From a virus: a stretch of 41,249 nucleotides of DNA. Shown here piece after piece: positions 1,347 through 39,029 of the stretch (position 1 is the first letter of the stretch; each line of letters opens with the position of its first letter). The DNA lies in IMG/VR virus record IMGVR_UViG_3300042691_022519, positions 1-41,249 of that record. One strand, given 5' to 3'. The notes under the pieces were generated by a model. The model did no database searches. It was not told the DNA's origin and saw nothing but the letters and a program-made list of their open reading frames with translations. The translations under genes and the position numbers were made by a program.

Positions 1347-4300
1347 TTATTCATCCTCTTAAGCTCAAATGCGTTATCAAGTGACTCCTGAATGTACTCA
1401 GCACCAGGTAGTGGTAAGCCATCCATTACAAGCTGTCTCTTTTGGAACTCTTGCAGCATCTTAGAACTGGGTACCTTATTCTGAATAGCCCAGAGCTGTA
1501 ACCTACCAAGGTCATAATTGAGTTGGATAGCGGCATCAGTCATTCGATTGATGGCGTCAAGTCGTCGTGCGTACTCACCCCCACCTTTCTCAACTGCACC
1601 ATTCCTGACGTCAGTGGCTAACCTCATCTGCTCCTTCCGTTGCCTTGAAGTCAGATCTTGGATGGAACGTAGTACGTCAGCCTCAGTGTACTGCATGTTC
1701 TTCAGCCCGTCAATGTAGCGTACCTTCCCCCCCAATGTTTGAATAGTAGCCTCTACTCCCTGTAGCTGATTGGGGAGTAGCTTACCCTTGTTACGTAGCC
1801 ACCCCTGTGTTGCGGGTACGAGTACAGCGTTAGTCCTAGGGTCAAGAACATCCTTCGTACCAGATAGCACTGGCAATCTATCGAGAGACGATAGTACCGG
1901 CGAAATGGAAAGGACTGCTGCCATCCATGGGGGCATAGCAATTCCTGCAAATTGGTTGTTAGCATTGAACTCACTATCGTCCCGACGGCGGCCAGTATAA
2001 GTGTCGATTCCAGAAGCTGCTTCATAGATGCCATTGAAGTATGATTTTGCTATTGCCTTGTTTACCCAATCTTGAATCGTACCCCCACTCTTCTTCCCTG
2101 TGCCCGCTGCTGCCCCCATCGACTCGGTGAACCAAGTGAACGCCCCCCAACGAGGATCAAAGTTATCAGTGTGCAGTACGTAGGTCTTCTTGTCGTGTGC
2201 ATCCCTGCGCAGTACCATACCGTACCGTGTCATGTCCTCCTGCTGCATCTCATGAACCGGTATCTCCTCCCCCTCTAGTTGGGCATCATTCCATAGCGCA
2301 TGTATCCTAGCGTAGTTGTACCACTTAGATGGTTGACGCATCATATCCCTCATTTGTAGGGGGAGATTTTGCATCGACCATGCAGTGAACGGTGCCACTG
2401 ATGAGATGTAGCTTTGGAACTTACCTACGTCGTCGAACACAGGGAATGAGCGCTTAACCTCTAGGATTAAGTCATCCCACCTATCAATCTTACCGATAGA
2501 CTGACCTAGTCCAAACTGTGCCAACCCGTCTACAATCCTTTCCCCCAAGTTTCCGGCTAGGGGGGAACGTCCTCTGACGATAGATAGGTGTCCAGCCATA
2601 TCCAGTATAGATGCCATCCTAATTGTGGGGAGGAATATGGCGTCACTCTTCCTCTCTAGAACTTTGGTTACCTCCTCTGCGTACTCAGGTACACTCTTAG
2701 CAGCAGCTCTAAGGTCAGCAAACTGCTTCATAATGTAGCGTGGGTCAAGCTCTTTCCACTGAAGGAGTGCATCAGCCCCTGATACGCCAGGCAGCACATC
2801 ACGGGAAAACATGCGAGCTGTCCTGGCTACCACTTCTCTATGCGTAACGGGCAGACCATCGATGATGCGGAAGGGTTTCACATTGTCAAATCCATCCAAC
2901 CCTTTGGCAGCTAGTTTCACCATGTCTATTACTGAGGCTACATATTCGTGGATACCTACGCCGTGTCCGTGTGCTGTGAATGCATTACCTAAGAATTGGT
3001 TAGTGAGGTATACCTGTGCACCTATTGGGTTACCAATTGCCTGCTTAGAGAACCAACGGGTAAACATCTTGTAACCAGCAGCTAACTTACTCATCTCTGC
3101 TGGTGACTTGGATATGTCCTTGATGGCCTCAAACTGTTGATGTACTAGGGGGTGCATGTACACATCATCCACCTTGACAAATTGTTTGTACAGTTCTCTG
3201 TTGGCGTCGAATTGTTGGGGGGTAATAGACCACCCCTTATCCAACCCCACAGTCTTAATGAGTTTCATCATCGACGACTCTTCCAGCATCTTACTCATAG
3301 ACTGAGCCATCTTTTGCGTAGCTGTCAACGGGTCGGCTATGAATACATCAGCCGGTACAATTGGTAACTTGTACGTGCGAGTCATGTATTCTGCCACCTC
3401 AGAGGTAAGCAGCGGCACCTTAGACATGATGCCACTGTCAACTAGCAGATCAACTTGTGTGGGGGAAAGACGTTGTGACAAGTACTCAGCAAACTGCTGT
3501 GGGTTAGCAATGAGACCATGTAGGTCATCAGGCTCTATCCCCATCATCCTTGCTGCTAAGTTGTGATCTTCTGGTAGGTAGCGCCAAGTGGTACGTGACT
3601 TAGCTATCAATTCGTGTGAGGGAGCAGTAGACTTAGTGGCTAGCTTGAGTGTGGCAAACCCCTCATCAGTGAGAGAGCGTGGCATATAACCAATGTTGTA
3701 CATGGTACCAACATCGTAGCCAGTAGCTTTTTGAATAGCTAACAGTTCATCCCACTGAGCTGATACCTCATTAGCTTTGTTGAGCAATTCAGGAATATCG
3801 TCAGGCAGAAACCCCCTATCTAGAAAGCTGTTGTAGAACTTGTTGTAGTTGTCCATCAGTACAGCATGTTGGGTGGGACTATTACCGTACACTGCCAACC
3901 TCTGAGGGATCATCCCCTCCTCTAAGATACGCCTCATGTCGTCAGGCTGGACTTGTACCCCCCTCCTTTTAGCCAAGTCCTTAAGGATTGAGGCTAGTTG
4001 CTTCTGCTTGTTCATCATACTGTAGACACTAGCTTCCCTGATAAGCCCATCAGTTAGACGCTTAGCATTCAGCAACGGCTCTCTCACCAGTCCTGCTACC
4101 CTAACCTTTTGACCGAGCCAGGTAGCTATCCATGACGAAACATTAGCTGTCTTCTGGGGGGCAAGTACGGCTAGATGTCCAGTCTCGAATACAATCTGTT
4201 CCCAGTACTGCTGTGCTCTAAGAGTTACCTGTCGCCTAGCCTGTGCTATGGGTTCGAGCGGTTCAAAGAAAGCATTGAGTGCCTGCTGTGCCTTGGCTCT

Positions 4301-4417
4301 ACGTGCTGCAATCTTAGCCAGTCGTGTCGTATTTTTAGATGACCACTCAAAACGTTCAACACTACCCTCGTCGAGCTGCTGAAATGGGTTAAGTTTAGGG
4401 TCGCAATTAAGGGGCAT
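1343..4417 (-). CDS. Large internal virion protein (T7 gp16-position)
   Basis: A 1024-residue soluble protein, largely helical, with no signal peptide. It is the third very large protein after the tail tube genes, the position of T7 gp16, the core protein ejected into the host cell. I see no transglycosylase motif in it; that activity is on the 987-residue protein encoded at 6943-9906. The N-terminus (about residues 30-70) is rich in Arg, Lys and Ala and looks coiled-coil. The start ATG at 4417 follows an intergenic array of 10-bp repeats (4421-4480), and the stop overlaps the next gene as ATGA. The ejectosome role is inferred from size and order. Confidence 0.65.
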   Translation of the reverse strand: MPLNCDPKLNPFQQLDEGSVERFEWSSKNTTRLAKIAARRAKAQQALNAFFEPLEPIAQARRQVTLRAQQYWEQIVFETGHLAVLAPQKTANVSSWIATWLGQKVRVAGLVREPLLNAKRLTDGLIREASVYSMMNKQKQLASILKDLAKRRGVQVQPDDMRRILEEGMIPQRLAVYGNSPTQHAVLMDNYNKFYNSFLDRGFLPDDIPELLNKANEVSAQWDELLAIQKATGYDVGTMYNIGYMPRSLTDEGFATLKLATKSTAPSHELIAKSRTTWRYLPEDHNLAARMMGIEPDDLHGLIANPQQFAEYLSQRLSPTQVDLLVDSGIMSKVPLLTSEVAEYMTRTYKLPIVPADVFIADPLTATQKMAQSMSKMLEESSMMKLIKTVGLDKGWSITPQQFDANRELYKQFVKVDDVYMHPLVHQQFEAIKDISKSPAEMSKLAAGYKMFTRWFSKQAIGNPIGAQVYLTNQFLGNAFTAHGHGVGIHEYVASVIDMVKLAAKGLDGFDNVKPFRIIDGLPVTHREVVARTARMFSRDVLPGVSGADALLQWKELDPRYIMKQFADLRAAAKSVPEYAEEVTKVLERKSDAIFLPTIRMASILDMAGHLSIVRGRSPLAGNLGERIVDGLAQFGLGQSIGKIDRWDDLILEVKRSFPVFDDVGKFQSYISSVAPFTAWSMQNLPLQMRDMMRQPSKWYNYARIHALWNDAQLEGEEIPVHEMQQEDMTRYGMVLRRDAHDKKTYVLHTDNFDPRWGAFTWFTESMGAAAGTGKKSGGTIQDWVNKAIAKSYFNGIYEAASGIDTYTGRRRDDSEFNANNQFAGIAMPPWMAAVLSISPVLSSLDRLPVLSGTKDVLDPRTNAVLVPATQGWLRNKGKLLPNQLQGVEATIQTLGGKVRYIDGLKNMQYTEADVLRSIQDLTSRQRKEQMRLATDVRNGAVEKGGGEYARRLDAINRMTDAAIQLNYDLGRLQLWAIQNKVPSSKMLQEFQKRQLVMDGLPLPGAEYIQESLDNAFELKRMNK

Positions 4418-4420
4418 AAT

Positions 4421-4480
4421 GGGTACTCATGGGTACTAGTGGGGACTGGTGGGGACAGGTGGGGACAGTGGGGGACGGAG
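4421..4480 (+). repeat. Tandem array of six 10-bp repeats, GGGKACNNNN
   Basis: Six units of exactly 10 bp begin at 4421, 4431, 4441, 4451, 4461 and 4471. Each begins GGGTAC or GGGGAC followed by four variable bases. The array fills the gap between the stop of the 822-residue virion gene (4482) and the start of the 1024-residue gene (4417). Related arrays lie at 5880-5919 and 9921-9980. The 10-bp spacing places every unit on one face of the helix. Confidence 0.9.
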
Positions 4481-4481
4481 G

Positions 4482-6950
4482 TTAGAAGCCACAAGGGCCG
4501 TTATAGAGTCGTTCAACCAGCTCGTCACTGGGGAAATCGTCTACGGAGGTATCAACCCAATCTGCTTCTACCTCATCCATAACTTCCTGCTCGACCCTCG
4601 CCTTAAGTTGGTCAACATCGTCACCATACTGTACCATATGTCTAATGTCACTTTCTACTGCATTGACTACAGCAGTTTCACTGTCAGCTTGTCTAACAGT
4701 ATCAAGATCTACTCTGGCTCTAGATGCCATCATCTTTGTGACATCATCCACCGGTTCACCAGCTACACCCCCCACACTACCAAAACTCTTAGGATTGTAA
4801 ACAGCTACTGTGTTGTTAGCTTTCACCCCGTCGTAGCCTTGGTTCCTTAGTTCATCAGCGAACGAACGCTGGAAGGATAGCTGTGTAACTTCGTCGTACT
4901 CCAATTTAGCCACATCATCAAGTATGTGTGTTACAGACTTAGGGTAGCCAGGAATATAGTCAATGTTTAATTCAGTTGCTACCTTCTCAGCAAGTTCACT
5001 GAGCTTAGCATCTGGTGTAAACCCTGAGATAAGACGTAGGTTGCTAGTATCTACAGTGTACATCACTGGATCGCCGAAGATTCTATCTGGTATGGTTGGT
5101 AGATTATCATTAGACATAGCACGTGAGGCGTTCTTTGCCACCTCTGGATCAGTAGTTAAGTAGATACCAGGCCCTAACTCACTACGAGCAGCACCGGTTA
5201 GTGGGTCAATATTAGGCAAATCGAGATTGACAACGCGACTCCCATGATACATAACTGGAGGTACATCAACAGCAGCCATCTTAACAGTGGGGGGATTGAC
5301 CAATCTAGTAATCGGTGGTAAGTCACCGTCTAATACCTCCCTCCCTATTGGTGGTAGTCCATCTAGTATACGTAACCCATCCCCCACGTTGGTATCTACA
5401 TTGGCAGCAATCTCATGTAGAATTTTTGCACGACTCGTAGCAGTGCCACCCCCACCTATTTCATCAGTCAGCTTAACTAACTCTTCTACTGAAAGGTTCT
5501 CTAGTACCTCGCGAGTTAATGGCACGTCAGTAGGTAGAGGCTTAGCTGCCGGTACCTCTACCTGTCGTAAGGGTGTATAAGCTTCTGGTAGTACATCGAA
5601 GTCTAATTTAAGCTGACCAGGTGTGGTACGTGGTACATCAGGCAGGTTGAGTGGTAGCTCTAACTGCTTAGGCGTGATAACCAACTTACCGAGTGGCAGC
5701 TCTAATTGACCGGCTGGCTGGAATGGTATCTCCAGTTGAGTACCTTTTGGCTTACCTCTGAACCCAGGTTTCTTACTCTTTGCTAGTGGTGTACCCAACA
5801 CATTCAGCTTTGGCAGTACAGCCTTCTTAGGTTTCTGCGGTTTCAGCATGAATGGGAGGGTCAGTTGCAGGGGCGGTTCGGGGACTGGTGGGGACACCTG
5901 GGTACGGGTGGGGACAGTCGGTACCGGTCTCCTTGCCTTGAGAATCCTGCCTAAGGTTGCATCAACGACATCACCAGTGAGAATATCAAGACCTACACCT
6001 GCAAGTAAGCTCGGGTTGAAGTCGAACCCAAACCTACCACTGTTCTTAGCCCCCCCAATTCTAAAACCCTCATCTCTCTTGATACCAAAGCCTTCCCCCA
6101 CCGGATCAGAGAAGCCGTACTGCGCCCCTCTCAATGCCTCAACAGTGTTACTCTTCCCATCAAAGTAGCGGTTCTTATCTGGTATAAGTTTGACTACATC
6201 ACGTAGCAGAGGTGCAAATGGAATGAGTGGAATAGTAGCATCAGCAGCACTGGTAATCTGATTACGCAACCAAGGTGGCACACTCCTCTCATACAGTCCC
6301 CCCATCGTTCTCTTAGCCGTAGAAGCAAAGTTAGTTAGGTCAATAGCTGCTCCCATAGCTGTGTTCTGAGGTAACCCCAAAGCGTAGACGATAGCTGCTA
6401 CTGGTGCTCCTCTCCATTCACCCTTCTCTCTATCGAAGAGTACAGGTGTACTGTATGTTCTCCCCCCCTCTTGTTGTATACCTAGTATCTGACCAACCCA
6501 AGCCATTGCGTTATCAGTAAAAGACTTAGGTGGTGGTATCTGCTCCAACGACTCTAGCATACGCTGTGCTACGTCCCTATCCCTGGTGTTGGGTAGCGTC
6601 AGGTCAAGTAGTCGCTGCCTATCCTCGAATGTCTTAGCAAACCCAGTGAATACCTCATTCAAGTTGGGGGGTTGGTAGATGTTGGGCATCTCTTGTGCCC
6701 CGTCGATACCGAAGTTGGCCTCTTGCTGTACCTGAAACTGCCTAGCCTGTATATTAGGGGCTAGCTGTCGAGTTACATCCTCGATAGGTGGGGGTGCTAA
6801 GTCGAACGTGGGGACAGCAGGCGCTTCTGTGACAGTAGGCAGTGGTGGTAAAGCAGCAGGCTCCGGTTCTGGTGGGGGGAAAGATGTAGGTATAGGTAGG
6901 GTTACTGGTGGTAGTTCGTCACCCTTTAAGTTAGAGATTGGGTCAGCCAT
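4482..6950 (-). CDS. Virion protein with ADP-ribosyltransferase-like domain and clamp-motif-like repeats
   Basis: About 822 residues from the ATG at 6950, chosen because GAGG lies six bases upstream; an in-frame ATG at 6962 has no such site. The N-terminus is Pro-rich. Around residues 360-450 the chain carries five short repeats of one pattern: QLTLPF, QLEIPF, QLELPL twice, and QLKLDF. These resemble the bacterial beta-sliding-clamp-binding hexapeptide (QLxLPL type). Around residues 565-720 there is an ADP-ribosyltransferase-like domain: YHGS (His), GPGIYLT (Tyr), then NQGYDGV and a VAVYNP strand, as in ART domains of phage polyvalent proteins. The third catalytic Glu is not obvious (Asn-Asn-Thr precedes VAVYNP). 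Lying between ejected-type proteins, it may enter the cell with the DNA. The stop of the upstream gene overlaps by 8 bp. Confidence 0.65.
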   Translation of the reverse strand: MADPISNLKGDELPPVTLPIPTSFPPPEPEPAALPPLPTVTEAPAVPTFDLAPPPIEDVTRQLAPNIQARQFQVQQEANFGIDGAQEMPNIYQPPNLNEVFTGFAKTFEDRQRLLDLTLPNTRDRDVAQRMLESLEQIPPPKSFTDNAMAWVGQILGIQQEGGRTYSTPVLFDREKGEWRGAPVAAIVYALGLPQNTAMGAAIDLTNFASTAKRTMGGLYERSVPPWLRNQITSAADATIPLIPFAPLLRDVVKLIPDKNRYFDGKSNTVEALRGAQYGFSDPVGEGFGIKRDEGFRIGGAKNSGRFGFDFNPSLLAGVGLDILTGDVVDATLGRILKARRPVPTVPTRTQVSPPVPEPPLQLTLPFMLKPQKPKKAVLPKLNVLGTPLAKSKKPGFRGKPKGTQLEIPFQPAGQLELPLGKLVITPKQLELPLNLPDVPRTTPGQLKLDFDVLPEAYTPLRQVEVPAAKPLPTDVPLTREVLENLSVEELVKLTDEIGGGGTATSRAKILHEIAANVDTNVGDGLRILDGLPPIGREVLDGDLPPITRLVNPPTVKMAAVDVPPVMYHGSRVVNLDLPNIDPLTGAARSELGPGIYLTTDPEVAKNASRAMSNDNLPTIPDRIFGDPVMYTVDTSNLRLISGFTPDAKLSELAEKVATELNIDYIPGYPKSVTHILDDVAKLEYDEVTQLSFQRSFADELRNQGYDGVKANNTVAVYNPKSFGSVGGVAGEPVDDVTKMMASRARVDLDTVRQADSETAVVNAVESDIRHMVQYGDDVDQLKARVEQEVMDEVEADWVDTSVDDFPSDELVERLYNGPCGF
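5880..5919 (+). repeat. Four 10-bp repeats inside the coding region
   Basis: Four units (5880, 5890, 5900 and 5910) match the GGGKACNNNN pattern of the intergenic array at 4421-4480, in the same orientation. They encode a Pro/Val/Thr-rich linker just before the QLxLPF repeats of the host gene. A 10-bp period inside a triplet-coded gene argues that the DNA or RNA repeat was the thing gained, not a protein repeat. Confidence 0.8.
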
Positions 6951-33107: not shown

Positions 33108-33514
33108 GACATTTAGTATGTGTTGATGATGAATGCTACTACCCAACTTTACATGGTTGTGACTTTTCAACATTGTACAGTGCTCTAAGAGGAGGTCAAT
33201 GCACACTCACTGGTGAATTATACAGTCAGGCAGTAGATGCATTGATACTACTCGATGAGGATGTGATTACACCGATGGCAGTGTTAGCTGTGAATAAGAT
33301 GTTGCTTTGTGCACCGTGGGTAACCCGCCCCCATGTACTCTACTGGAAAAGTCGGTTTATGCCACAACGTTGTGACTCAGTCCTATTACGTAGGTTGATT
33401 TCGATCACCGGGGAACAGGAAGAATACATTATCAACGATGGTGGTTATGACTGTAACGCAGAAAAGTTCACTATTAACATGAGTGGGTACAGGTATGGAC
33501 AGCTCTACTTGTAA
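33104..33514 (+). CDS. Protein of unknown function, Cys-rich
   Basis: 136 residues with seven Cys, several near the N-terminus (CVDDECYYPTLHGC), but no clear zinc-ribbon spacing. GGGAGGGGAG lies before the ATG. The end overlaps the HNH gene that follows, so that gene probably inserted next to it. Function unknown. Confidence 0.55.
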   Translation: MRHLVCVDDECYYPTLHGCDFSTLYSALRGGQCTLTGELYSQAVDALILLDEDVITPMAVLAVNKMLLCAPWVTRPHVLYWKSRFMPQRCDSVLLRRLISITGEQEEYIINDGGYDCNAEKFTINMSGYRYGQLYL

Positions 33515-33977
33515 GAGAATTAAAGAGTTATACGAGTTGATTGGGCCGAACTTAATGACTCTTAATCAGATAGCAACAGTTACTGGCACAAGTAAAAGCA
33601 CTGTTGGAAGGTACGTCATAGAGAATTACCCTGAAGAGTTTAGAAAAAAGAGGAACGAACTTTGTTATCATTACGCTAACCAGAAGGAACTTCATCCTAA
33701 CTACAAGGGAGGTAGAACAATGGAAGGAGGTTACATAACTGTTGAGAAACCAGCATGGTATACCGGACGTAAGAATAGTAAGTATGTACGAGAGCACAAC
33801 GTTCTAGTCTGTAAGGCTATAGGAATCACAGAGATACCAAAGGGATTCTGTGTTCATCATATCAATGGGAACAAGGTTGATAATTCCCTTGGTAATCTGC
33901 AGTTTATGTCACTGTCAGCACATAAGAAATTACACCTAGAACTTAAAAGAAGAGGTAGAACGTATGGATGTAAGTAG
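33495..33977 (+). CDS. Free-standing HNH homing endonuclease
   Basis: 160 residues from the ATG at 33495; a GTG at 33483 adds four. N-terminal HTH module (LYELIGPNLMTLNQI to GRYVIENY), then a linker, then an HNH domain: CVHHINGNKVDNSLGNLQFM and a final AHKKLH. It is a close paralogue of the intron-borne enzyme at 36649. Homing enzymes of this kind cut a specific site in an allele that lacks them. No intron core is seen around it. Confidence 0.82.
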   Translation: MDSSTCKRIKELYELIGPNLMTLNQIATVTGTSKSTVGRYVIENYPEEFRKKRNELCYHYANQKELHPNYKGGRTMEGGYITVEKPAWYTGRKNSKYVREHNVLVCKAIGITEIPKGFCVHHINGNKVDNSLGNLQFMSLSAHKKLHLELKRRGRTYGCK

Positions 33978-34248
33978 CTACGAAAGTGATTTTGATTTCG
34001 ATAGTGACATTATCTTTGATAACTGGGGGAGCTATTACCCTATCCCCCCAAAAAGAGAGGACGTTAAGCGATTGTTAGTAGCAGTGAAGAGAGCACCACA
34101 ATCGGTACGAGGTTCACAATACGCAGCTATGTACTCTCTGTTGACAGATAAACCCTGGCCGTGGAGACGGTATGTATCTGAGTATGTAATTGTTTCATCG
34201 CATGGTTTGGTTGGATATCCATATGCTACTGAGGTATTTGAGGGGTGA
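33964..34248 (+). CDS. Protein of unknown function, acidic N-terminus
   Basis: 94 residues. It begins with an Asp/Ser-rich stretch (SDFDFDSDIIFDN), then a basic helical part with a Trp-rich PWPWRRY. AAGAGG upstream. It lies between the HNH gene and the HTH trio. Confidence 0.5.
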   Translation: MDVSSYESDFDFDSDIIFDNWGSYYPIPPKREDVKRLLVAVKRAPQSVRGSQYAAMYSLLTDKPWPWRRYVSEYVIVSSHGLVGYPYATEVFEG

Positions 34249-34249
34249 T

Positions 34250-34741
34250 ATGATAGACAAAGAAACAGCTATGAAGAGAGCTAGACGTCGTAGCTTCAAT
34301 GCCATAATACAGGGGGATTTTAAGAGGGATGATATGGTAGACAAAGAAACAGCTAAGAAGATCTGTGACATGTTCGAGTTACGTAATGAAGACTTTCTAA
34401 CTATCACAGAGATACGTGATAAGTTGGGGCTATCAAGACGGGTGGTTGACAGGGTTATCAGAGAGAACTACAATGTTCACGAACGTGAGGAACATAGAGG
34501 GTTGTCTCAAAGTAAGGTTAAGTTTGGAAAGGCAGTTAACATCGACGCACTTCACGCTGAGATTGAGAGACTGTTCGATATCGAAGGTAGCGACATCGTG
34601 CCTATGAGATCTATAGCTCGTAAGGTGGGGGTATCATTGAGGTACGTGATGGATTACATCTATATAGCTTATGACGAGGATGTGATAGCAAGGCATAATG
34701 CAAAGGTAATGAGAACAATTCATTGGGGATCAGGAAGATGA
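34250..34741 (+). CDS. Double-HTH protein 1 with embedded polymerase-gene fragment
   Basis: 163 residues from the ATG at 34250; another start at 34334 with AGAGG gives 135. The first 28 codons are an in-frame duplication: the opening MIDKETA recurs as MVDKETA, and the stretch between reads ARRRSFNAIIQG, which is a polymerase motif (see the repeat at 34273). After that come two HTH modules (residues about 32-85 and 100-155) of the LF-L-x-(G)-x-x-LT-x-x-EI type. It is the first of three tandem relatives. Probably a DNA-binding regulator or homing accessory. Confidence 0.6.
   Translation: MIDKETAMKRARRRSFNAIIQGDFKRDDMVDKETAKKICDMFELRNEDFLTITEIRDKLGLSRRVVDRVIRENYNVHEREEHRGLSQSKVKFGKAVNIDALHAEIERLFDIEGSDIVPMRSIARKVGVSLRYVMDYIYIAYDEDVIARHNAKVMRTIHWGSGR
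34273..34316 (+). repeat. 44-bp copy of a DNA polymerase coding segment
   Basis: Matches 37782-37825 in polymerase exon 2 at 41 of 44 positions, with 25 consecutive identical bases (34279-34303 and 37788-37812). Same strand and same reading frame. It lies between 30-base direct repeats (34247-34276 and 34331-34360, two mismatches). Confidence 0.9.
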
Positions 34742-35142
34742 CGTATAATTTAGATCTGCTTATCTGCCAGCTATTCAGCCTAGAGGGTGAAGAGTTGCTA
34801 ACACAAGCTGAGATCGCTAAGGAGTTAGGTGTGAATCGCAGGGTTGTAAGTGAAGCAGTTAGACGACTGTATTCAGCCGAGGATAGAGAACTGCACAATA
34901 CAGCCGCTCGTTCTAAGGGACAGTTCCATAGACCGGTAGATACTGAGGTACTGTACGCTGAGATACGAATGTTGTTTGAGAGAGAAGATGTAATATCAAT
35001 TGTTGACATTGCTAAACAGTTGGGGGTGTCCCCCACATTTGCTCGTAAGCATATCGAGTCATTCTACTCAAGGGCAGCTATAGCTAACCACTGCGGTATG
35101 GTGAGAAGTAAACTATTGAAGGAGAGAGGACAGTGCAGATAA
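34738..35142 (+). CDS. Double-HTH protein 2
   Basis: 134 residues from the ATG at 34738, which overlaps the previous stop (ATGA). Module 1: LFSLEGEELLTQAEIAKELGV (about 10-30); module 2: MLFEREDVISIVDIAKQLGV (about 80-100). Each is a helix-turn-helix with a following basic helix. Paralogous to its neighbours. No nuclease motif. Confidence 0.62.
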   Translation: MTYNLDLLICQLFSLEGEELLTQAEIAKELGVNRRVVSEAVRRLYSAEDRELHNTAARSKGQFHRPVDTEVLYAEIRMLFEREDVISIVDIAKQLGVSPTFARKHIESFYSRAAIANHCGMVRSKLLKERGQCR

Positions 35143-35549
35143 CTGACGAGCATGAGGTGTGTAAACTGTTTAGACTACGTGGTGAGCAGGTACTGACGCA
35201 GGCTGAGATTGCAAGTAGGTTAGGACTGTCACTCAAAGATGTTCGTAACATACTAATTCGGTGGTTCGATGTACATGAGCGTGAGGAACATAGATGCCTT
35301 GCAAGAAGTAAAGGTCAGAACAAGAAAGCTATCAACCATGATGCGCTTCACAGTCGGATTGAATCACTGTTTGATAGGACTGGTGAAGATATCTTACCTG
35401 TGTATACTATTGCTAAAATGGTAGGTATGTCAACGTTCTATGTAACTACACATCTTAGACTAGTTTACGATGAAGATGAATTAAGAGAGCATGAAGCCAA
35501 TGTTAGATTCACAATCAAAGCAAGACAAGTTAGTGGTGCTAGACTTTGA
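35133..35549 (+). CDS. Double-HTH protein 3
   Basis: 138 residues from a GTG, with GAGAGAGGA upstream. Modules LFRLRGEQVLTQAEIASRLGL and LFDRTGEDILPVYTIAKMVGM. Shares VHEREEHR-(G/C)-L with protein 1. It overlaps the start of DNA polymerase by 59 bases, so expression is probably coupled. Confidence 0.6.
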   Translation: MQITDEHEVCKLFRLRGEQVLTQAEIASRLGLSLKDVRNILIRWFDVHEREEHRCLARSKGQNKKAINHDALHSRIESLFDRTGEDILPVYTIAKMVGMSTFYVTTHLRLVYDEDELREHEANVRFTIKARQVSGARL

Positions 35550-36549
35550 GACATCCAACCTAGCAGTAGTGAGGGGGAAGGGTGTAGTCCACTGTTTCAG
35601 TCTAGTCAACGATGATATAGCTGAGGTGTACGAATGGTGTGACGAGAGTAAACAAATGCTACTCAACCTTGCAGCTAACGGCTACACTTTCATAGCTCAC
35701 AACGCTAAGTTTGATAAGGCTGTGATGCAGCAATTTGCAGGTATCTCCCCCCCATTTATTTGTACCCAAGTTCTTGCTCATACTATCAACCCCACATTGA
35801 TGAGTTACAGTTTAGATAGTCTGACAGGGGCTAAGTTAGACTACGCTTACATGATGGAGACTTCAGGTAGATGGGATGGGGTAAGTAAGAAGGAGTTGTA
35901 CGAACTGCCGTTCAATGAGATCATGGCAGAGTACTGTCTAAATGATGCTCAAGCTACCTGGGTACTATACAAAGATTTGATGACTCACCTTGATGCAGAC
36001 AAGCGTTTACATGATAGCTTCTTCAAGGTGCTCAACCCCTTCATTGACGTGATGATCTCATTAAATGGGGGGATGAAGATCGACAGTAGAGCACTGATGG
36101 CTTTGCTTGGTGAGCTATCAGCCGACGTAGACAAGGAGTATGCTAAGTTCTTAGTAGACTATCCTAAGGTAGTCAAGCTTAAGTGGAACAAAGAGGGTAA
36201 GAAGTGGGAAGCTACTGACAAGATGGGTGTCCCCAACCTCTCCTCCCCCAACGATGTAACGAGTCTACTCTTCAGCAAGGGATGGGTACCTGACGATTTC
36301 AAGTGGGACACTGGGCGACCTGTCACCACGCAGAATACACTCCGTCGATTGGCGGTGACTGAGACTGCTTCCCCCCAACTAAGAGAACTAGCTAACAGAC
36401 TGCAACAACTACGCTCGTTGATTGGTATCCGTACTCAGTGTATCTCCCTGGCTGAGATTGTAGCTGAAACGGGGAGTGAGATAATCTACGCTGACTGGAG
36501 GCAAGGTGAGACAGTTACCAACCGTATGAGTTGTAAAGCCCCCAACCTT
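35491..36549 (+). CDS. DNA polymerase, family A, exon 1 (exonuclease and palm start)
   Basis: 353 residues. The 3'-5' exonuclease motifs are present: VVLDFETSN (Exo I, residues 13-21), FIAHNAKFDKAV (Exo II, about 68) and YCLNDAQATWVLY (Exo III, about 148). Exon 1 ends CKAPNL at 36549; the next codon in the genome is a stop (TAA), but that belongs to a group I intron. Joining 36549 to 37243 restores the family A sequence PNL-QNLSTRHPVWGQRVR, giving about 621 residues in all. The start overlaps an HTH gene; an ATG nine bases on is also possible. Confidence 0.92.
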
Positions 36550-37242
36550 TAACTAACTGGAGGTTGTAAAATTCCGTGAATTGCGGGGACACCCAGACCG
36601 GGCAATCCGCAGCCAAGCTTTACCCATATATACCTTAGGAGGTACAAGATGGACAAATGTATTAGTCAGCTTTACGAATTGATTGGTGAGAATCCTCTAA
36701 CTCTAGGAGAGATTGCTTTAGTACTAGACCTGTCATATTCCACAGTGTTTAGATATGTGAAGCGTACTTACTCTAAAGAGATACGTGACATGAGGAAGAA
36801 GCTGTGTTATAGTTACTCTAAACTTGGGGGTAAGAATCCAATGACTGGTAAGTATAGCGAGTTACACCATAACTACAAAGGTATAATCAGCGATGGTAAG
36901 GGCTATTTGATGGCACTCAAACCAGACTGGTATACAGGTAGAAAGGGATGTAAGCATGTATTCGTTCACCATCTAGTTATATGTAAAGCACTTGGTCTTA
37001 CTGAGATACCTGCTGGATTCTGTGTACATCACATAGATAAGGATCCAACTAATAATGATCTCAGTAATCTGCAACTAATGACACTAGCTGCACATACCAG
37101 ACTACATACGGTAAAGAAGGTTCAACGACTAGGCGAAAGCCGTAGGGATTTAGTCAATCCCGAAGCGCGGAACAAAGATCTAGATAATGAATCTGGTCTT
37201 TGATGAGATAGTCTACTCCTCCAAGGAATTGGAGGTATAAGG
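36550..37242 (+). other. Group I intron in the DNA polymerase gene
   Basis: 693 bases. P1: exon bases 36543-36549 (CAACCTT) pair with 36560-36566, with the U-G wobble at the splice site (36549 with 36560). P10: 36557-36559 (CTG) pairs with the 3' exon start CAG at 37243. The last intron base is G (37242). Core elements: P-like AATTGCGGGGA (36579), Q-like AATCCGCAGCC (36604), R-like GTTCAACGACTAGGCG (37120-37135) and S-like AGATAGTC (37206-37213). P7 is GACTA (37127-37131) with TAGTC (37209-37213). P9 hairpin: CCTCC-GGAGG at 37219-37235. An HNH gene is inside. Confidence 0.93.
36649..37203 (+). CDS. Intron-encoded HNH homing endonuclease
   Basis: 184 residues, with AGGAGG six bases before the ATG. 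N-terminal HTH module (LYELIGENPLTLGEIALVL to FRYVKRTY), a central region with PDWYTGRKGCKHVFVHH, then the HNH core FCVHHIDKDPTNNDLSNLQLM and AAHTRLH. The 3' part of the frame (from about 37120) is also intron core sequence (P7 5' strand and P8), so enzyme and ribozyme share bases. It would cut intronless polymerase genes and spread the intron. Confidence 0.88.
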   Translation: MDKCISQLYELIGENPLTLGEIALVLDLSYSTVFRYVKRTYSKEIRDMRKKLCYSYSKLGGKNPMTGKYSELHHNYKGIISDGKGYLMALKPDWYTGRKGCKHVFVHHLVICKALGLTEIPAGFCVHHIDKDPTNNDLSNLQLMTLAAHTRLHTVKKVQRLGESRRDLVNPEARNKDLDNESGL

Positions 37243-38049
37243 CAGAACCTATCTACTAGACATCCAGTGTGGGGGCAAAGGGTACGTTCGCTGTTCGTCG
37301 CCCCCAAAGGTTACAAGATGTTAGTGGGTGACTTAAGTCAGATTGAACTGTGCATCTTGGCTTACTATCTTCAAGAGTTCTGTGATGATAGAACAATGGC
37401 TGATGGCATCAGAGAAGGTAAGGATGTCCACACTGCTAACACTGAGAATTGGTATGGCATAGATGAAGGTGATGATGGGTTTAATGACAAGAGAAAGATT
37501 GCTAAAAATGGGATCTTCAGCGTAAATTATGATGCCTCCCCCATGCGTGTTTCACTCACACTCAACATCAGCGTCAAAGAGGCTGAGGAAATTATCAGTG
37601 CAGTGTACGAGAACACTGAGATTAAGCAGTTGAAGGAACTATTCTATCAGGTAGTTGAAACTCTTAGGGATATTAAACCCTTGCAATACCGCAGTAGCTT
37701 ATATTACAATGGATTCTTCTACGATTGTTTGGGGGTGAGGTACTTCTACCCAGAGATTAGCAGTAGAGATGTTAAGCTACAGAAGAAAGCTAGACGTCGT
37801 AGCTTCAATGCCCTACTACAGGGGGGATGCTTTAGTTTGTTCGCAACGCTACTACTTAAACTATTACCTGAGATGAAAAAACGTGGGGCGTGGTTGTCAG
37901 CAGCCGTTCATGACGAAGCTGTGATTCTAGTACCAGATGCATACGCTGAGGAGTTACTTGCTATCTGTCAACGTGACTTCACCTACATGTTGGGTGATGT
38001 GCCTATACGAGCTAGCTTCAAGTTGGTAAATAATTGGAGTGAAAAGTAA
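37243..38049 (+). CDS. DNA polymerase, family A, exon 2 (polymerase core)
   Basis: 268 residues after splicing. Motif A: MLVGDLSQIEL (catalytic Asp). Motif B region: KRKIAKNGIFSVNYDAS, in which the usual Tyr-Gly is Tyr-Asp. Motif C: AAVHDEAVIL (catalytic Asp-Glu). The segment ARRRSFNALLQGG after motif B matches the usual AFN-x-x-x-QG stretch of family A enzymes. It copies the phage genome; the primase-helicase lies about 4 kb upstream. Confidence 0.92.
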   Translation, partial: QNLSTRHPVWGQRVRSLFVAPKGYKMLVGDLSQIELCILAYYLQEFCDDRTMADGIREGKDVHTANTENWYGIDEGDDGFNDKRKIAKNGIFSVNYDASPMRVSLTLNISVKEAEEIISAVYENTEIKQLKELFYQVVETLRDIKPLQYRSSLYYNGFFYDCLGVRYFYPEISSRDVKLQKKARRRSFNALLQGGCFSLFATLLLKLLPEMKKRGAWLSAAVHDEAVILVPDAYAEELLAICQRDFTYMLGDVPIRASFKLVNNWSEK

Positions 38050-38252
38050 TGCTCAACGATTACGAACCTGTTGATTGGACAGTAGAGATGGGAGTAATAG
38101 AGATGTATACGGACAGCGGTGACAATTTGTGTGCATGGTGGCTGCTGAATGTAGGAACACGTAATAAGTGGAGAGCTAGGTATGAATTATCCAGACTTGA
38201 ATCTCACGATGGAACAACAGTTCGAGATACAGAAGTACACGACGGTACTTGA
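38049..38252 (+). CDS. Small protein after polymerase, unknown
   Basis: 67 residues, TAATG overlap with the polymerase stop. The first 45 residues (with CAWWLLNV) look folded; the remainder overlaps nblA in another frame and is low complexity. Function unknown. Confidence 0.45.
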   Translation: MLNDYEPVDWTVEMGVIEMYTDSGDNLCAWWLLNVGTRNKWRARYELSRLESHDGTTVRDTEVHDGT

Positions 38253-38355
38253 GAACGAATTCCCTGACCATCCACTTGGTGAACTAGTTCTGAATTTAAT
38301 GGCACAAAACTTTGCATTAAGGAATAGTGTTAAGCAGCTACTGAAAAACGAATAG
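38182..38355 (+). CDS. nblA: NblA-like phycobilisome degradation protein
   Basis: 57 residues. The NblA pattern is present: an LTMEQQFEIQKY segment (compare the family's L-x-LEQ-x-FEL), then a second helix ELVLNLMAQNFALRNSVKQLLK, matching the family's LL-x-x-LYRQ-x-x-x-K-x-N-L-x-K-x-LL. Length fits (host NblA about 55-65). NblA binds phycobiliproteins and brings them to Clp protease. Phage copies known from Microcystis and Planktothrix phages are thought to dismantle the antenna during infection. It overlaps the preceding gene and has AGG upstream. Its presence points to a phycobilisome-bearing cyanobacterial host. Confidence 0.85.
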   Translation: MNYPDLNLTMEQQFEIQKYTTVLENEFPDHPLGELVLNLMAQNFALRNSVKQLLKNE

Positions 38356-38411
38356 TTGACAGCTCCAATGGGGGGAGAGCAGTCCCATGCACACTAACAC
38401 ATCGAGGTTGT

Positions 38412-39029
38412 ATGGTTTTTAAGATTAGTCTACTGGACAACGAGCACTATGCAGAGCAGGTTACCGACAGACTTTCAATGCCCAAAGGTGGGGAAGAAAT
38501 TGTGTTTGTACCTATTACGTTAGTGTCTGGGTACAGCTACTGGACTGCTGATAAGGTATGCCACAAGTCTACTAAACCTTTTAGAGCTACACCAGGTATC
38601 AAAGAAGGTGAGCGTCCTAAGTACTTTCTGTTCATGCAGGTATGGGACATCTTGGGAAAAGATGTAAAATTCCTGGAGATTACACAAGTCAAAACTATCA
38701 GACCTGTTAAGGAAGCTTTTGCTGACAAGCGGTACTACAATTTCGCTGAAGGTCTTAATGGTCTAAGGATTAAAGCATCGGGTTCTGGTATGCAGATTGA
38801 GTATGCTGTGAGTGTTATATCTTTACAGAATACAGACTATCAGCAGGAAGTTGAGCAGTGTGACAACTACCTGCGTGATACTTTCAAGGTGTGCTTTGAG
38901 TTAGAAGGTGACGAAGTACCGGCTTCATCTCCTAATCCTGTTGCTGATACTTACTATGAAGTTACACCTAGTAGACACAGTGCCTCTATTGTGCCTGCTA
39001 CCAGGGAGCTACCGACTGACAGAATGTAG
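38412..39029 (+). CDS. Protein sharing a KISLLD-EHY start, possible ssDNA-binding role
   Basis: 205 residues. The N-terminus MVFKISLLDNEHY matches the gene at 39743 (MKISLLDSEHY), and both then run into beta-rich segments (here RPKYFLFMQVWDILGKDVKFLEI, there GEIFMTVAIWDN). A Ser/Pro tail follows. The beta-rich fold and place in the replication arm make a single-strand binding role conceivable; this is only inference. Confidence 0.55.
   Translation: MVFKISLLDNEHYAEQVTDRLSMPKGGEEIVFVPITLVSGYSYWTADKVCHKSTKPFRATPGIKEGERPKYFLFMQVWDILGKDVKFLEITQVKTIRPVKEAFADKRYYNFAEGLNGLRIKASGSGMQIEYAVSVISLQNTDYQQEVEQCDNYLRDTFKVCFELEGDEVPASSPNPVADTYYEVTPSRHSASIVPATRELPTDRM

Follow-up and report, generated by a model that had tools for sequence, protein, structure and literature searches.

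An HNH-encoding group IA2 intron in the DNA polymerase gene of a probable cyanophage

In the virus studied here, analysed over a window of 41,249 nucleotides (the whole of IMG/VR record IMGVR_UViG_3300042691_022519), the gene for the family A DNA polymerase is split by an element that is almost certainly a mobile group IA2 intron encoding its own HNH homing endonuclease. The exon join, a covarying RNA core, a conserved HNH motif and intronless relatives all bear on this reading. The virus is probably a Saffermanviridae-like cyanophage, as its terminase is 51–52% identical to those of LPP-1, Dor1 and Pf-WMP4, and we infer its host from that placement. The intron joins a known, published intron–HNH family that occupies the same spot in dozens of phages, and its presence is not unusual. 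What is mildly new is its position at site 676, 6 nt downstream of the site 674 occupied in its closest (cyanophage) relatives, together with a covarying hairpin that buries the ribosome-binding site (RBS) of its nuclease gene.

The split polymerase gene

The gene and the element that divides it consist of the following parts.

35491–36549, + strand: 5' exon of the family A DNA polymerase, with the 3'-5' exonuclease domain and the start of the polymerase domain, ending ...KAPNL (Pfam DNA_pol_A_exo1, 2.4e-12; DNA_pol_A profile positions 21–128)
36550–37242, + strand: group I (IA2-type) intron, 693 nt, with an omega-G end (exon join; partial RF00028 matches; relatives-only covariance model; covariation across 16 introns)
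37243–38049, + strand: 3' exon of the DNA polymerase, beginning QNLSTRHPVWG (Pfam DNA_pol_A, 2.9e-33; profile positions 129–381)

Joining 36549 to 37243 removes 693 nt between PNL and QN and yields a single stop-free ORF, in which ...NRMSCKAPNL is followed directly by QNLSTRHPVWGQRV. The DNA_pol_A profile is contiguous over this junction, running from 21 to 128 on exon 1 and from 129 to 381 on exon 2; both the join and the Pfam coverage agree with an earlier note on this DNA, which had proposed that the splice restores PNL-QNLSTRHPVWG without a stop. In the DNA as it stands, an in-frame TAA at 36550 directly follows the PNL of exon 1. A splice slipped by 1 nt (intron 36549–37241) would give an identical protein with CTG instead of CTT as the Leu codon; we favour 36550–37242 because of the U.G pair rule and the comparison with relatives.

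Fold and covariation of the RNA

The intron RNA can be folded into these elements.

36543–36566, + strand: P1, CAACCUU (36543–36549) with GAGGUUG (36560–36566), 7 bp, U.G at the splice site (hand-built fold)
36557–36559, + strand: P10 guide strand CUG, pairing with CAG of the 3' exon (37243–37245), 3 bp, adjoining the P1 guide (hand-built fold)
36572–36578, + strand: 5' strand of P3, UUCCGUG, partner 37166–37172 (99.1% of cells paired; double-sided changes in 5 of 7 pairs)
36582–36611, + strand: P4 (36582–36586 with 36607–36611) and P5 (36592–36594 with 36600–36602) (100% of cells paired)
36612–36624, + strand: 5' strands of P6 (36612–36614, partner 37119–37121) and P6a (36618–36624, partner 37110–37116) (hand-built fold; covariation alignment)
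37127–37213, + strand: P7 (37127–37131 with 37209–37213), P7.1 (37132–37134 with 37139–37141), P7.2 (37145–37150 with 37156–37161), the 3' strand of P3 (37166–37172) and P8 (37174–37185 with 37191–37201) (fold; covariation; relatives-only model)
37218–37235, + strand: P9 hairpin, 7 bp, GGAA tetraloop (100% of cells paired; double-sided changes in 6 of 7 pairs)

The group I core is complete, with P3, P4, P5, P6, P7 and P8 all present and P7 (GACUA/UAGUC) and P3 forming the pseudoknot. P1 with its U.G pair, P10, the terminal G, the P7 pairing and the P9 hairpin had all been called visible in the earlier note, and each is found in the hand-built fold. The U.G pair recurs in 14 of 16 introns in a simple search, and the last intron base is G (omega-G); P10, at only 3 bp, counts against the intron reading. 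Subgroup IA2 is recognized by P7.1 and P7.2 lying between the 5' strand of P7 and the 3' strand of P3 and being joined by GUA (PMC3428280), and the window has exactly this arrangement, P7.1 (GGC-GAAA-GCC) leading through GUA into P7.2 (GGGAUU/AAUCCC).

The window intron was aligned, over the ORF-less parts, with 15 introns that come from other phages and from IMG/VR contigs and whose limits were set by their own exon joins. In this 16-intron alignment 92.6% of helix cells are paired, against 26–43% when the partners are slid; double-sided changes occupy 140 cells, whereas shuffling gives 40.2 on average and none of 500 shuffles reaches 140, and they are spread over 36 of the 57 pairs. P7 is invariant in all 16 introns, such that covariation neither supports nor contradicts it, while all other core helices covary. 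The changes peculiar to P4 of the window are compensated.

A covariance model built from the 15 relatives, with the window excluded, gives a single match with E < 1 in the window, which covers the 3' core at 37113–37236 and scores 71.4 bits (E 5e-13). The outcome with Rfam, which the earlier note had named as a check, was mixed. A scan at gathering threshold gave no match in the window; at a relaxed threshold RF00028 matched in two pieces, 36582–36647 (19 bits, E 0.03) and 36942–37235 (33.4 bits, E 1.5e-6), both below its gathering score of 50, which is a curation score and no biological feature. The match is split and sub-threshold because an endonuclease ORF of about 0.5 kb interrupts the core in P6a, and the negative gathering scan is a problem of model geometry, not an absence of the intron.

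The HNH gene and its overlap with the core

Within the P6a loop lies the endonuclease gene, preceded by a hairpin.

36649–37203, + strand: HNH homing endonuclease ORF, 184 aa (Pfam HNH_3, 9.4e-10; PHROG 7545, 8.6e-39)
36631–36644, + strand: hairpin UACCU-UAGG-AGGUA, burying the Shine–Dalgarno AGGAGG (36637–36642) of the HNH gene (foldable in 16 of 16 introns; covariation)

The ORF runs from ATG 36649 to a stop at 37201–37203. Its conserved HNH motif spans approximately residues 127–153 (37027–37107), with H127, H128, N140, H149 and H153 invariant among 16 HNH sequences. No solved structure close to the protein by sequence was found, and a search for a promoter within the intron returned two weak consensus matches only, at chance level.

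On its way to the stop the ORF overlaps the 3' strands of P6a, P6 and P3, the 5' strand of P7, P7.1, P7.2 and all of P8. The earlier note's statement that the HNH frame passes through the 5' strand of P7 is thus right but incomplete, and its further claim, of one set of bases constrained by both protein and ribozyme, finds no support. Residues 5–155 are conserved, but homology to the relatives extends no further than about residue 155 and does not reach the core, which is read in frame 1 in the window against frame 2 in 15 of 15 relatives. Where the relatives' core peptide reads ...ATTISKEST... or a shorter version, the window's reads VQRLGESRRDL...; its frame differs after a length change in P6a, and the last ~26 residues are unrelated to those of the relatives. 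On these two grounds, the shared bases appear to be constrained by the ribozyme and not visibly by the protein, and a dual constraint on the core, when tested, was not supported. The C-terminal difference of ~26 residues could slightly alter the endonuclease, whose catalytic part is intact.

The hairpin directly upstream of the HNH start codon can form in all 16 introns. Its stem is paired in 96.6% of cells and has 10 double-sided cells against 2.6 in shuffles, the variants being UACC/GGUA, CGCC/GGCG, UGCC/GGCA, CACC/GGUG and ACCC/GGGU. In T4, hairpins that hide the RBS of intron endonucleases shield splicing from translating ribosomes (PMC2988022), and the paper on Pf-WMP3 notes that the RBS there may reduce expression (PMC3428280). 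By analogy, the hairpin plausibly explains how an ORF that overlaps the core is tolerated.

Relatives and the two insertion sites

Homologues of the HNH protein were found in 45 phage records and 43 IMG/VR loci, and in all annotated loci that we opened the gene is flanked by two polymerase pieces. Carriers of the intron–HNH family include Pf-WMP3, Dor1, phiL7, PhAPEC7, PS3 and dozens more phage records; a polymerase search of IMG/VR with exon 2 alone gave weak matches only. A close parallel is found in Phormidium phage Pf-WMP3, for which splicing of the intron was demonstrated both in vivo and in vitro and whose HNH protein, I-PfoP3I, nicks the intronless gene (PMC3428280). That intron (672 nt) is likewise a group IA2 intron in the family A polymerase of a Saffermanviridae cyanophage, with the HNH gene in P6a, an ORF that overlaps the core, a short 3' end after P9 and an RBS hairpin. 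It differs in its site, 674 (between P and N), whereas the window intron lies 6 nt downstream at 676 (between L and Q), and in its HNH protein, which is ~43% identical and encoded by an ORF of 161 aa rather than 184 aa. Leptolyngbya phage Dor1 (PQ195596), whose polymerase (44%) and terminase (52%) rank with the closest annotated ones, also has an HNH-bearing polymerase intron, but at site 674 and with an HNH protein ~51% identical to that of the window; its announcement mentions just an HNH gene within the polymerase gene (PMC11812291). LPP-1, 94% similar to Dor1, is without the intron, and the two form a natural intron-plus/intron-minus pair.

Xanthomonas phage phiL7 and PS3, pphageBV72, BF25/12 and L13.2 share with the window site 676, a near-identical P1 (AACCUU/GAGGUU) and the HNH family. 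These are, however, phages of Proteobacteria with longer 3' ends, and the core and HNH of the window are nearer to the cyanophage-type introns at 674. By description, HNH-bearing group IA2 introns also interrupt the family A polymerase genes of the T7-like phages phiI and W31 and of the phages SPO1, SP82 and Bastille, with the ORF in P6a and site 881 in phiI and W31, and site 674 in SPO1, SP82 and Bastille (PMC3428280).

In a search limited to the PNLQN motif, all 28 placed introns insert after P (674, numbered as in PMC3428280) or after L (676) and nowhere else, Pf-WMP3 and Dor1 at the first and the window, phiL7, PS3 and others at the second. The nearest rows to the window are 674 introns in both trees, L011 and the phage contig L010 for HNH and L010 and Dor1 for the core. 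The site label switches about four times on the trees, with at least two switches forced by well-supported branches. These topologies make an independent slide of the window intron likely, branch support near the window being moderate. The fuller account, in which the family slides between two sites exactly 6 nt apart and the window represents an independent slide within the cyanophage lineage, we offer tentatively, as a call falling just short of even. The exon ends, ...CCT and ...AACCTT, are two codons apart and often form a near repeat, AACCCT-AACCTT, so one guide could pair at either, and small changes in P1/P10 and in nuclease specificity might re-target the element between 674 and 676.

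Several related arrangements were seen in passing. The window contains a free-standing HNH gene (33483–33977) that matches the intron HNH at 53% identity across 141 residues; the two are sisters in a 17-row tree (98/94, long branch), and the relatives-only model found no group I core next to the free-standing gene. This suggests duplication between intron-borne and free-standing forms within one phage. Three tandem ORFs just upstream of the polymerase (34190–34741, 34723–35142 and 35133–35549) have helix-turn-helix motifs and mutual identities of 37–47%, the first also resembling the helix-turn-helix region of the free-standing HNH protein. In L010, four such HNH genes (34–408, 1392–1868, 2953–3465 and 4371–4829) cluster around the intron-bearing polymerase. 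The polymerase of L029 apparently holds two group I introns of this family (2405–3098 and ~3370–3680; model matches of 88.9 and 99.2 bits), of which the HNH-bearing one is at site 674 and the other, compact and ORF-less, is apparently in the KAHTF...YGG motif (motif B). In L036, L044 and L064 the polymerase frame stops within ~20 codons past the intron and is followed by a new ATG, which suggests that the polymerase is divided into two proteins immediately after the intron. By inspection, runs of at least five G or C seem frequent in the window (for example 35000–38700), often in coding sequence.

Discussion

The exon join, the RNA core and the HNH match agree with the original proposal, in which the phage polymerase is interrupted at a conserved site by an HNH-bearing group I intron. 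Once transcribed, the intron would fold with P1 holding the 5' splice site through its U.G pair and P3–P8, with P7, forming the core. Two transesterifications started by guanosine would then remove it and join ...PNL to QN..., giving one full polymerase. During co-infection, the HNH protein, made from a start site that the P6a hairpin partly conceals, would nick or cleave the gene close to the insertion site in copies that lack the intron; repair templated by the copy with the intron would then propagate the element. For the window intron, splicing, nicking, homing and translational control are expected from the Pf-WMP3 relative and the T4 precedents.

Could the polymerase instead now be two separate proteins, as in naturally split polymerases, with a free-standing HNH gene inserted between them and the RNA structure a non-functional relic? 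The in-frame TAA right after PNL would fit, as would Vibrio phage MJW (L019), in which an HNH gene (2392–2999) splits the polymerase at the same PNLQN region and a search found no group I core. Yet all core helices of the window are intact, P3 and P7 included, and its own changes in P4 are compensated. Moreover, exon 2 has no convincing start near the junction, the first listed being GTG 37267, inside conserved sequence, and the relatives' exon joins are exact even though their intron lengths vary and are often not multiples of three. We consider this explanation very improbable. An in-frame insertion or an intein was rejected on those intron lengths, the stop at the exon 1 junction and the covarying core.

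A milder alternative, which we regard as unlikely, keeps splicing and removes homing: the endonuclease would be inactive and the intron inherited vertically. The C-terminal tail is indeed frame-shifted relative to 15 of 15 relatives, and no intronless close relative of the window phage was found. Against this, the catalytic HNH residues and residues 5–155 are conserved, and the relatives' ORFs stop at very different points past the core, which makes an essential role for the tail improbable.

The mobile, HNH-bearing group IA2 intron is, for the most part, ordinary phage intron biology, with two exceptions. Once it is recognized, what look like two gene fragments become a single essential polymerase gene and a mobile element. 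It also adds a 676 member to a cyanophage lineage otherwise sampled at 674, which would make repeated re-targeting by 6 nt open to study in one well-aligned family.
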